NCBI RefSeq assembly: GCF_029625215.1
Contig: NZ_CP121197.1
Coordinates: 992,001-1,056,000, forward strand
Length of the DNA stretch: 64,000 nt
Source: Aurantibacillus circumpalustris
GTDB lineage: Bacteria > Bacteroidota > Bacteroidia > B-17B0 > Aurantibacillaceae
Direction of reading: 5' to 3'
Shown: positions 49,485 through 52,034 of the stretch, in pieces
How positions within the stretch are numbered: the first letter of the stretch is position 1
Layout: the number at the start of each line of letters is the position of its first letter
Notes under the pieces: model-generated
Database searches by the model: none
Seen by the model: the letters and a program-made list of their open reading frames with translations, nothing else
Told to the model about the DNA's origin: nothing
Program-made: the position numbers and the translations under genes

Positions 49485-50576
49485 TTAATCCCTCTTGTAA
49501 ACTAGCACATTAAACACATAAGGATTAATGCGTTTAATTTGTTCAGAACGTTTGAGTTTCTTTAGACTGGTTTTTTTAGAATTTTGGGTCAATAAATCTT
49601 GTTTTGTGCTGTCAATTTCGCAAGATTTAATCGAATTTAGAATATTATTGGCCTTTATTGCAAATCCGGTAGCTTCTTCACCTGCCAATTTACCCTTAAT
49701 GACGCCAATTACATTACCATTTTCATCTAAAAGGGGTCCGCCGCTATTTCCTGGATTAACCGGAATTGAGATTTGGTACATATTGGTATCGTTTGAGTAA
49801 CCACTTAAAGAGCTTAGTGAACCTTCGCCATATACCATATCCTTACGAGGGTAACCTAAGGTAAACACTTTGTCACCTACATCGGTTGATTTTTCGTTTA
49901 ATGAAAAGGGCACTTGCCAGTTTTTATAAAAGTCTTTATTCTCAAGTTTTAAAACAGCTAAATCTAATTTAGGATCGAACAAAACTAATTTTGTGAGAGC
50001 TCTGTCAATAACGCCGTTTCTAACAAAAATACTATCAGCACCTTTTACCATGTGATAACTGGTTAGGATATATCCTTTATCGTTAAGAGCGAAAGCACTT
50101 CCCTCTAGATTTGCAGGGGCATAATTTATTTTTTTCCCACTTTTAGTAATACCTTCAACAACACCATCACTTGACGCTTTTAATTCCATCACCACACGGT
50201 TAAGATCGGTAATTTGATTGCTTTGTTGCTTAAGAAGGTATCCTCCAGTACTTAAAACAGCTACCGTGCTTAATACGGCTATAAGAGTTGTACTTGCTGC
50301 TACTGCTATTGTTCTGCCATGTCGCCTTGCAAAATTTTCTTCGCGGTGAATAGAAATAACTTTAGAATTCCCGAATTCTTCCTGGTGAATCGATTTTAGT
50401 TTTTTCTTTAAACTAATTCTATCGGAATTTAATTTTAAGGCATCAATGATCGCTTTGTGTTCATTAAATGCACTGGCCATTATCACATCGGTGTGTAATA
50501 ATTTTTCAAAATTAGTTCTTTCCTCTTCACTTAAGGTCTTATTCAGGTAATTATCAAATAAATCAGTAACTCTCAT
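49485..50576 (-). CDS. Anti-sigma-like membrane protein fused to an S1C serine protease domain
   Basis: A 363-residue protein. Residues 1-~85 are cytoplasmic, acidic and helical (LFDNYLNKTLSEEERTNFEKLLHTDVIMASAFNEHKAIIDAL), like anti-sigma N-termini. One membrane helix spans about 89-115. The rest is a trypsin-like DegP-type protease with the triad His175 (SYHMV), Asp205 (LDLAVL) and Ser278 (GNSGGP), all present, and no PDZ domain. By topology the protease is periplasmic. It lies 12 nt after an ECF sigma factor gene. It may sense envelope damage and control that sigma factor, possibly by self-cleavage; this is inference. Confidence 0.8.
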   Translation of the reverse strand: MRVTDLFDNYLNKTLSEEERTNFEKLLHTDVIMASAFNEHKAIIDALKLNSDRISLKKKLKSIHQEEFGNSKVISIHREENFARRHGRTIAVAASTTLIAVLSTVAVLSTGGYLLKQQSNQITDLNRVVMELKASSDGVVEGITKSGKKINYAPANLEGSAFALNDKGYILTSYHMVKGADSIFVRNGVIDRALTKLVLFDPKLDLAVLKLENKDFYKNWQVPFSLNEKSTDVGDKVFTLGYPRKDMVYGEGSLSSLSGYSNDTNMYQISIPVNPGNSGGPLLDENGNVIGVIKGKLAGEEATGFAIKANNILNSIKSCEIDSTKQDLLTQNSKKTSLKKLKRSEQIKRINPYVFNVLVYKRD

Positions 50577-50588
50577 TTTTCTTTCTCC

Positions 50589-51173
50589 TTATGATTCTTG
50601 TTCAATAGTTTTTTTATCAAAAAAGTATTTCTTTAATCGTTGTAAACATTTATACTTTTGGTTCTTAGCATTGTCTGCATTTGTATAGCCAAACTTATCA
50701 GCTATCTCATCCATATTTAATTTGTGCACATAAAAGTCTTTAATTAGCGTGGCACAAGGTTCGCCAAGTTCGAGTAGACTTCTGTTCATTTTTTCAATTT
50801 CTTTCTCTTTCTCTTGATGCTCGTCTAAATCACTTGCTACATCAACAACCTCATTTTCTGCATCTTCTTTAAATAAAAATGTTTTACCACTTTTTTTCAA
50901 GTGTTTAAGCCACAATCGTTTCGAAATGGAATAAATATAGGTTTGTAATTGACAATTCAAAGAAAATTCAGGTTTTTGTGCATTTTCATACAACGCAATG
51001 ACAGTTTCCTGATATATATCCTGAGCAGCTTCTTCTGTACCACTATTGTTTACAATAAATTTAAGAACGACGTTGTAATACTTTTTGTATAAGGCGCTAA
51101 GTACTTCACTATTACCGCTGCGTAACCCATCAATAAATTGATCGTCGGAAAATTGCAGTTTGGTAGCAGACAT
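50589..51173 (-). CDS. ECF RNA polymerase sigma factor
   Basis: A 194-residue sigma-70 family protein of the extracytoplasmic-function type. Region 2 has ALYKKYYNVVLKFIVNNSGTEEAAQDIYQETVIALYENAQ (core and -10 binding), followed by FSLNCQLQTYIYSISKRLWLKHLKK; a charged linker (EDAENEVVDVASDLDEHQEKEKEIEKM) and region 4 (LIKDFYVHKLNMDEIADKFGYTNADNAKNQKYKCLQRLKKYFF) with the helix-turn-helix. ATG at 51173 preferred over GTG two codons upstream. Its likely partner is the anti-sigma/protease encoded next, with which it forms a two-gene operon. Confidence 0.9.
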   Translation of the reverse strand: MSATKLQFSDDQFIDGLRSGNSEVLSALYKKYYNVVLKFIVNNSGTEEAAQDIYQETVIALYENAQKPEFSLNCQLQTYIYSISKRLWLKHLKKSGKTFLFKEDAENEVVDVASDLDEHQEKEKEIEKMNRSLLELGEPCATLIKDFYVHKLNMDEIADKFGYTNADNAKNQKYKCLQRLKKYFFDKKTIEQES

Positions 51174-51470
51174 AGACACGCTGTTTAAATTAATACTCTA
51201 TTTTTATAAAGGTAACCTGTTTTTGATTAAAATTTTTATTCTTCACTATTTTAAGACGCTAATTAAAAGGTTTATTCATTCATAATATTATATGTTTTAA
51301 GTCATGAAGACACAATTAAGAGCAAATTGACATTAACTTAATAGAATTTATTACTGTGATAGTCAAATAGTTACAAAAAACAGTATTCTTTTTTTGATTT
51401 TTTTGGGTTACCATTTTCTGTTTTCGGTATCAATGTAAAATCAATCACTAATTAAAAAATTAAAACTGAA

Positions 51471-51710
51471 ATGAAAAAAGTATTATCAATTATCGCTGTA
51501 GCTGTAGTAGCTACTTTCGTAGCTTGTGGTCCTTCTGCTGAAGAAAAAGCTAAAATGGAAGAAAGAGCAAAATTTATTCAAGATTCAATTGCTGCTTCAA
51601 TCAGCGAGTCTATGCAAGCTCCTGAAGCAACTGCAGATACAACTGCTCCTGCTGTTGAAGCTGCTGCTCCTGCTCCTGCTGCTGAAGCTCACGATGCGCA
51701 CGGACACTAA
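51471..51710 (+). CDS. Small lipoprotein, paralogue of the next gene
   Basis: A 79-residue lipoprotein: signal MKKVLSIIAVAVVATFVAC with lipidated Cys19, then GPSAEEKAKMEERAKFIQDSIAASISESM, a short charged helix, and an Ala/Pro/Thr-rich tail ending HDAHGH. The helix matches the next gene (CGPAAE ... HERAKIFQDSIANVI). A His-rich end could bind metal but may be chance. Function unknown. It is divergent from the ECF sigma operon across ~300 nt; within that stretch I see no consensus promoter or other feature. Confidence 0.7.
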   Translation: MKKVLSIIAVAVVATFVACGPSAEEKAKMEERAKFIQDSIAASISESMQAPEATADTTAPAVEAAAPAPAAEAHDAHGH

Positions 51711-51739
51711 GAATTTGTGTTTAGTTAGTTAGATGATTA

Positions 51740-51776
51740 GCCCCAAAGCATTGCTTTGGGGCTTTTCTGTTTTTTG
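51740..51776 (+). terminator. Terminator of the first small lipoprotein gene
   Basis: Perfect 10-bp stem (GCCCCAAAGC / GCTTTGGGGC, 3-nt loop) followed by TTTTCTGTTTTTT. Confidence 0.9.
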
Positions 51777-51812: not shown

Positions 51813-52034
51813 ATGAAAAAAACAGGTTTATTTTCCGCCCTTACTTTTATTTTGATTTTAACATCGTGCGGCCCTGCTGCAGAAAACAGACAGGTGATGC
51901 ATGAGCGTGCTAAAATTTTTCAGGACTCCATTGCTAATGTTATTAGAACAACAATGGCTGAAGCTGAAGCTCCTTCAAATGTTGTTGTTATGCCTACACC
52001 AACTAATGCAGCGCAAGCGGCACCTCAAAAATAA
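51813..52034 (+). CDS. Small lipoprotein, paralogue of the previous gene
   Basis: A 73-residue lipoprotein: lipidated Cys19 (LTSC/GPAAEN), a short helix VMHERAKIFQDSIANVIRTTM with the same pattern as the neighbour, then a Val/Pro/Ala-rich tail. Lower similarity in the tail. Probably a duplicated envelope peptide of unknown role. mrp follows after 24 nt and may share the transcript. Confidence 0.68.
   Translation: MKKTGLFSALTFILILTSCGPAAENRQVMHERAKIFQDSIANVIRTTMAEAEAPSNVVVMPTPTNAAQAAPQK

Follow-up and report, generated by a model that had tools for sequence, protein, structure and literature searches.

According to excerpts of PMC7593790, RseA-type anti-sigma factors undergo two cuts, the site-1 cut by DegS and the site-2 cut by RseP; in that source and in excerpts of PMC8103513, RseA and DegS are described as separate proteins, with a PDZ domain gating DegS. 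In a 64,000-nucleotide (nt) stretch of the Aurantibacillus circumpalustris genome, referred to here as the window, we analyzed a two-gene operon that encodes an extracytoplasmic function (ECF) sigma factor and a 363-amino-acid (aa) membrane protein. We propose, with a probability of roughly 60%, that the second protein is an anti-sigma factor carrying its own site-1 protease, in effect RseA and DegS in one chain, and that the system controls envelope lipoproteins. Like the E. coli sigmaE/RseA/DegS/RseP system (AlgU/MucA/AlgW in P. aeruginosa), it combines an ECF sigma factor with an anti-sigma-type protein that has one membrane helix and a cytoplasmic N-terminal domain; an HtrA-type periplasmic protease is the expected sensor, an RseP-like protease is available, and the predicted output lies in the envelope. 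Unlike RseA and DegS, the window system is one chain without a PDZ domain, and its predicted output is centered on lipoproteins.

Cleavage of a membrane regulator within its own chain, as we predict for the window protein, is also a feature of BlaR1, which autocleaves upon sensing beta-lactams (excerpts of PMC7593790), and of self-cleaving RsgI or FecR-type regulators. Unlike the window protein, BlaR1 acts on a repressor and not on a sigma factor. To our knowledge, no HtrA domain is involved in the self-cleavage of RsgI and FecR-type regulators.

An earlier note, made from the sequence alone, had pointed out an ECF sigma factor gene, a 12-nt gap, and a gene for a 363-residue partner, and a check of the open reading frames (ORFs) recovered this arrangement. 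The two genes and the segments of the second product are as follows.

50589..51173, minus strand: ECF sigma factor gene, 194 aa (ORF; TIGR02937 sigma70-ECF; Sigma70_r2)
49485..50576, minus strand: predicted single-chain anti-sigma factor and membrane-anchored S1C protease, 363 aa (ORF; Trypsin_2; 123 distinct orthologous pairs)
50373..50576, minus strand: residues 1-68, anti-sigma-type helical domain (model helices; hhalign to RskA-type domains; pseudo-fusion model)
50232..50312, minus strand: residues 89-115, single membrane helix (hydropathy; N-in orientation predicted from the preceding basic residues)
50115..50231, minus strand: residues 116-154, extracytoplasmic juxtamembrane linker, presumed site-1 region
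49626..50114, minus strand: residues 155-317, HtrA-type serine protease domain with H175, D205, and S278 (Pfam, PDB match, fold)
49497..49553, minus strand: residues 342-360, conserved C-terminal helix-strand tail KRSEQIKRINPYVFNVLVY (two alignments; strand at 354-360, block with a predicted local distance difference test [pLDDT] score of 90)

Conservation of the sigma/protease gene pair

The sigma gene starts with ATG at 51173 (an in-frame GTG lies at 51179) and stops with TAA at 50589-50591. TIGR02937 matched its product over residues 25-183 with 62.8 bits against a cut-off of 42.9, which classifies it as an ECF sigma factor, and the Pfam model Sigma70_r2 matched with an E value of 2.7e-9 (37.1 bits; cut-off, 24); no separate region-4 match was found in Pfam at E ≤ 1. 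The second gene, preceded by a ribosome-binding-like GGAG, starts with ATG at 50576, 12 nt downstream of the sigma stop, and ends at 49485 on the same strand.

The second protein matched 81 of the 87 genomes of its GTDB family at E ≤ 1e-10, mostly over its full length; the GTDB order contains the same 87 genomes. A scan of GTDB-species contigs with an alignment returned 381 relatives; the best 80, with Mucilaginibacter, Daejeonella, and Adhaeribacter among them, were retained. Matches at E ≤ 1e-20 were present in 111 genomes of a class sample of 395. The full-length form occurred in 59 of the 111, spread over ten families (read from the match list, aided by fetched loci), and the remaining 52 matches covered the protease domain, 7 of these being inspected more closely. 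At phylum level, also sampled with 395 genomes, every match spanning the N-terminus, as judged by match coordinates, was in Bacteroidia.

A survey of neighboring genes had been proposed in the earlier note as a check of its idea, and conservation next to ECF genes, the lack of which would have refuted that idea, held: by tblastn, a sigma homologue lay upstream in 140 of 141 loci having a long match to the second protein. These loci come from two overlapping collections and are therefore not 141 independent loci; the sole miss, L131, is cut at a contig end. Among 36 further distant loci, the sigma gene was upstream in 29/29 with a full-length protein and in 0/7 with a protease-only protein (one of the seven, L177, offers only ~335 nt upstream). 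Since all of these full-length and none of these protease-only loci have the sigma gene, it goes with the N-terminus and not with the protease domain itself. A reverse search of the same 395 class-sample genomes with a sigma profile yielded 57 genomes at E ≤ 1.3e-67, all within the 59 carriers of the full-length protein. The two other carriers are G006, whose adjacent sigma factor is a weaker match (E 8.7e-49, L143), and G304, in which the contig is cut. The next sigma match (E 8.5e-63) belongs to a non-carrier, so that the cut-off at 1.3e-67 was placed by looking.

Pooling the loci gave 169 sigma/partner pairs, of which 124 were left after removal of identical ones and 123 once L027 was excluded for its broken sigma frame. 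(In this draft genome the sigma frame spans 103 aa and the anti-sigma/protease gene is intact; a sequencing error is possible.) The intergenic distance was between -30 and +60 nt in 116/123 pairs, and stop and start overlapped by 4 nt in 24/123. That an ordinary membrane protease lies by chance beside an unrelated sigma gene is scarcely credible and was rejected, being contradicted by the 140/141 adjacency, by the 29/29 versus 0/7 loci, and by the reciprocal sigma search; adjacency over ten families and the 4-nt overlaps argue the same way. A pseudogene reading was likewise rejected, as adjacency, catalytic triad, and reading frames are all conserved.

Domains of the 363-aa protein

Trypsin_2 of Pfam covers residues 159-292 (E 2.9e-21). 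The best PDB sequence match of the protease domain is MucD (E 7.3e-18), and its Foldseek matches include MucD, Deg1, HtrA, DegP, DegS, and Rv3671c. The trypsin-like domain with intact His175, Asp205, and Ser278 described in the earlier note is present with the residues at those positions, S278 sitting in VNPGNSGGPL; a trypsin-like fold with a His-Asp-Ser triad places the protein among the S1C proteases, and H, D, and S are intact in 123/123 orthologues. The protein scored 60.4 bits with the curated DegS model, which requires 422.95, and, having no PDZ domain either, is not a DegS. The best NCBIfam model for the protease domain was that of MarP (Rv3671c), where its 91.1 bits fell short of the cut-off of 250, so that it is not a MarP either. 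Like MarP and other membrane-tethered HtrA-like proteases, it has a trypsin-like periplasmic domain without a PDZ domain; MarP, unlike the window protein, has no anti-sigma domain. MarP has several transmembrane helices. Elsewhere in the same genome, L002 (859-2112) encodes a trypsin-like protein with a signal peptide, sharing 40% identity across the protease domain plus the C-terminal tail. It has neither an anti-sigma domain nor a nearby sigma gene and is a possible source of the recruited protease domain.

The membrane helix that had been placed at about residues 89-115 agrees with a hydropathy peak of 2.24 (19-residue window) beginning at residue 90, and a hydrophobic peak of >1.6 was found in 121/123 orthologues. 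The linker that follows is 31-49 residues long across orthologues (median, 39; 39 in the window protein), with a helix at 118-138 modeled inside a low-confidence stretch. No PDZ domain was among the Pfam matches at E ≤ 1, and the chain stops 46 residues past residue 317; the tail, which reads KRSEQIKRINPYVFNVLVYK in many members, occupies the usual PDZ place of HtrA proteases. The N-terminus had also been called acidic, which does not apply to it overall: residues 1-88 contain 14 D/E versus 16 K/R, and residues 1-52 contain 10 D/E versus 6 K/R.

By profile comparison, this N-terminus groups with the RskA-type anti-sigma domains. A profile of 56 N-termini aligned in hhalign with the N-termini of 27 Bacteroidia RskA_C proteins (27 of 29 rows were used, the RskA of the same genome being among the two excluded) at a probability of 93 and a P value of 2.4e-7; among controls, the best of 50 column shuffles reached 0.064 and the reversed profile reached 0.36. 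This comparison replaced a single-sequence hhalign run against the own-genome RskA (probability, 9.5; E 0.0034). The NCBIfam anti-sigma model NF052375 matched 23/24 full-length members at E ≤ 1 (best, 1.3e-5), with the window protein at 15.6 bits, under the cut-off of 100. When the 56 N-termini alone were compared with Pfam and NCBIfam, zf-HC2 matched 10, NF052375 matched 16, and NF010501 matched 8, most matching families hitting one member each; the window protein's own N-terminus alone matched none of these three. A relationship to anti-sigma families, which the earlier note had wanted checked, is visible between profiles, and the NCBIfam model matches only weakly. The 60 matches listed for a PDB sequence search with the N-terminal profile contained only a nuclear receptor (E 0.026), which was taken as chance.

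Like RskA-type class I anti-sigma factors, such as that of M. tuberculosis SigK/RskA, the window protein has a related N-terminal domain and a gene directly behind that of an ECF sigma factor; unlike it, RskA has an RskA_C ectodomain and no protease domain. The same genome also carries an ordinary pair of ECF sigma factor and RskA-type anti-sigma factor (L202, 944-2283). Further parallels were found among 16 loci of related, next-ranking sigma genes. In 14 of them the neighboring protein bears the same N-terminal domain (hidden Markov model E values of 2.1e-7 to 6.8e-14), and 13 of the 14 neighbors have a clear hydrophobic helix (peak of >1.6). Unlike the window protein, these neighbors have ectodomains that look diverse, and the protease-domain profile matched none of the frames in the 16 loci. 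The 14 loci (L338-L349, L351, L353) look like an apparently large Bacteroidia family of anti-sigma factors with exchangeable ectodomains, the window member being the one that bears a protease.

We modeled the sigma factor joined to residues 1-88 as an AlphaFold pseudo-fusion, reading the stop codon as Gly and using 108 alignment rows. The mean pLDDT was 90.7 and the predicted template modeling score (pTM) 0.85, with a pLDDT of 90-97 for the block of residues 1-68. In a model of the full-length protein (24 rows), which has N-terminal helices at 3-11, 17-29, and 31-68, the N-terminal blocks had pLDDT values of 54-86, no clean comparison with the pseudo-fusion because the alignments differ. Among structural matches of the pseudo-fusion, the sigma chains of the AlgU-MucA, SigK-RskA, SigmaE-RseA, and BldN-RsbN complexes rank high.

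Several results count against the overall proposal. Those sigma chains align over both domains at a root mean square deviation of 8-14 Å only, Foldseek of the pseudo-fusion gave no match at E ≤ 0.001 (best, 3.2e-3), and its VIA Z scores, at ≤9.0, are middling for helical folds, so that a sigma2-sigma4 arrangement like that of solved class I complexes is a possibility at most. Covariation between the sigma factor and the N-terminus was not above that between the sigma factor and the protease domain (123 sequences; effective number, 81): the share of column pairs with the sigma factor that fell in the top 0.5% was 0.34% in the N-terminus, 0.41% in the protease domain, and 0.85% in the membrane helix and linker. 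Two of the 16 related-sigma loci, L350 and L352, have no such N-terminal domain, L352 ending soon past the sigma gene. FecR-type regulators of positive sign are known, which counts for an N-terminus that recruits or activates the sigma factor at the membrane, as in a FecR-like pro-sigma regulator. Given the resemblance to RskA-type anti-sigma domains and the matches to anti-sigma models, we regard this alternative as very improbable; the N-terminus very likely inhibits the sigma factor. The part of the earlier note that placed anti-sigma factor and protease in a single chain is well supported by co-occurrence, the RskA-type profile, 14 of the 16 related loci, and the pseudo-fusion, and its self-cleavage part stays a prediction, one that agrees with the invariant triad and the tethered geometry.

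A promoter-like site and the lipoprotein genes behind it

A sharp promoter-like site and the lipoprotein genes behind it, both unmentioned in the earlier note, are new here. In the window the relevant features are the following.

51190..51217, minus strand: promoter-like site GGTTACC-N14-GTATTAA of the sigma/anti-sigma operon (motif search)
51406..51433, plus strand: divergent site GGTTACC-N14-GTATCAA (motif search)
51471..51710, plus strand: small lipoprotein gene, 79 aa, with signal peptide and lipobox-like ..FVAC, predicted regulon member (ORF, motif)
51739..51763, plus strand: strong hairpin of 11 pairs with a T-rich tail, resembling an intrinsic terminator, downstream of the lipoprotein gene

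When up to one substitution is allowed, the near-invariant dyad GGTTACC(TTT) plus GTATTAA lies upstream of the sigma gene in 119/123 loci. Its two 7-mers have a spacing of 14 nt in 106 of the 119 and of 15 nt in 13, and the motif ends a median of 15 nt (range, 2-45) before the sigma ATG. Exact matches to the degenerate pattern numbered 197 in 165 kb of upstream sequence, whereas one shuffled copy and 155 kb of downstream sequence each had 0 and 206 kb of coding sequence had 1; with one substitution allowed, the counts were 239 upstream, 1 in the shuffled copy, 10 downstream, and 7 in coding sequence. The window's 4.60-Mb genome, searched with 14-nt spacing, has two perfect sites only, both in the window. 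Only perfect sites were counted there because one-mismatch hits were at control level (all hits 2+2 versus 2+3 for the reversed pattern) and two of them fall within long open frames. A conserved promoter-like site before its own operon marks this as a predicted autoregulated ECF system, and in all likelihood this sigma factor reads the GGTTACC-N14-GTATTAA motif.

A divergent copy of the motif was present in 90/123 loci within the upstream sequence examined (≤1,500 nt). All 90 have at least one divergent motif in front of a small ORF whose product begins like a signal peptide and contains a loose lipobox, and 11 loci have two or three distinct motif-preceded small lipoprotein genes. These 11, from Mucilaginibacter and others, are L106-L108, L110, L132, L135, L137, L139, L145, L148, and L151; their lipoprotein genes near the sigma gene each have their own motif copy and often encode a D/T/K-rich repetitive tail. 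Some additional divergent copies have no recovered ORF behind them (L088, L133, L135, and L142), and a further one, in L068, runs into another gene. A loose lipoprotein scan of the 33 loci without a divergent motif gave no convincing small lipoprotein nearby. In the window itself, a second small lipoprotein-like ORF (51813-52034, plus strand; 73 aa) lies beyond the terminator and resembles the first; in the pattern search it had no preceding GGTTACC-type site.

As an independent check on genomes in which the lipoprotein gene is not adjacent, 40 unlinked motif hits were hand-picked as conserved looking among the matches listed in the search of the 87 genomes. Thirteen came from genus g10 (L268-L280), all before the same small lipoprotein; for 12 of the genomes, all but G078, the sigma promoter could be assigned to loci that lack a divergent lipoprotein motif. 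Another 17 precede DUF4349-related lipoproteins, members of an uncharacterized family (L281-L283, L288-L299, L301, L302); the assignment was by Pfam, above the cut-off for L281 and below it for L289, and by phmmer to L283 or L289 for the rest, and the frames of L294, L296, and L302 are short or interrupted. Five precede a coiled-coil lipoprotein of ~286 aa in several genomes of the GTDB family (L284-L287, L305). The last five fit no pattern: three have no nearby ORF, one has an ORF 230 nt away, and one precedes another protein type. Since linked and unlinked targets are mostly lipoproteins, the predicted regulon is centered on envelope lipoproteins, and on motif evidence the DUF4349-related family appears tied to this sigma factor.

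This output bears on an alternative in which the second protein is mainly a stress-induced envelope protease whose N-terminus provides feedback on its own synthesis, the sigma factor being released by turnover or titration and not by regulated self-cutting. The operon does lie behind the motif and does encode a protease. The other conserved motif genes, however, are lipoproteins with their own motif copies and not chaperones or further proteases, and we consider such a gene-dosage arrangement improbable.

Proposed release of the sigma factor

In the mechanism that we propose, cytoplasmic residues 1 to ~68 would keep the sigma factor inactive, one helix would cross the inner membrane, and the HtrA-type trypsin-like domain would lie in the periplasm. 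An envelope signal would activate the protease; because a PDZ domain is absent, the likeliest gate would be the conserved C-terminal tail or substrate binding. The active protease would cut the juxtamembrane linker (~39 residues), either in its own chain or in that of an oligomer neighbor, and an RseP-like protease would clear the stump and so free the sigma factor. The freed sigma factor would raise expression of its own operon, as feedback, and of small envelope lipoproteins, joined in some genomes by DUF4349-type and coiled-coil lipoproteins. Self- or trans-cleavage is the trigger that we favor: invariance of the triad in 123/123 orthologues indicates that catalysis matters, and the triad does not tell which bond is cut. 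The second cut would probably be made by an RseP-like protease, for which the genome offers the M50 protease L200 (Peptidase_M50, 443 aa, E 1.5e-50) and a second, weaker M50 match, L201. As a first guess, because the conserved output is lipoprotein, the signal could be lipoprotein load or mislocalization. In the fullest version of the model, a self-contained envelope-sensing circuit that we consider less likely than not, one chain would act as sensor, site-1 protease, and anti-sigma factor, with cleavage in cis or between oligomer partners. The main output would be small disordered lipoproteins, possibly monitored by the protease.

Two observations run counter to self-cleavage. HtrA proteases are generally PDZ gated, and the window protein lacks a PDZ domain; in addition, the genome encodes another HtrA-type protease, L003, that could act at site 1. 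The suggestion in the earlier note that no DegS homologue is needed holds within the two-gene operon, where no separate protease gene was found, and is weakened at the level of the genome by L003. Both observations would fit a protein that acts as sensor or effector only, with an anti-sigma N-terminus that is cut by a separate site-1 protease or releases the sigma factor without cleavage; the HtrA-like domain would then degrade periplasmic proteins, and load or conformation would set the grip on the sigma factor. The 14 related anti-sigma-type proteins without a protease-domain match, which need other cutting or release, fit this as well. The triad, however, is invariant and tethered beside the presumed cleavage region, and a pure ligand sensor would have no need for all three of its residues, so that we judge this alternative rather unlikely. 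Self-cleavage by the window protein is testable by a single Ser-to-Ala change, and the sharp promoter-like site offers a ready reporter.

In the literature searched, coverage of which was partial, we found no description of an anti-sigma factor with an HtrA domain; a listing in ECF reclassification work is possible. Excerpts of PMC7406223 report class I anti-sigma neighbors for only 6% of Bacteroidetes ECF sigma factors, and anti-sigma domains of the kind in the window may have been missed in that count. The figure leaves the control of the remaining Bacteroidetes ECF sigma factors open, and for one clade the module described here offers a concrete answer that is widely conserved. Its lipoprotein gene set points to an unrecognized envelope stress response in Bacteroidia; if the protease does monitor these lipoproteins, as in the fullest version of the model, it would be a surveillance loop for lipoprotein trafficking and not for outer membrane proteins. 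The module may represent a previously undescribed means, conserved across many Bacteroidia, by which envelope trouble is sensed.

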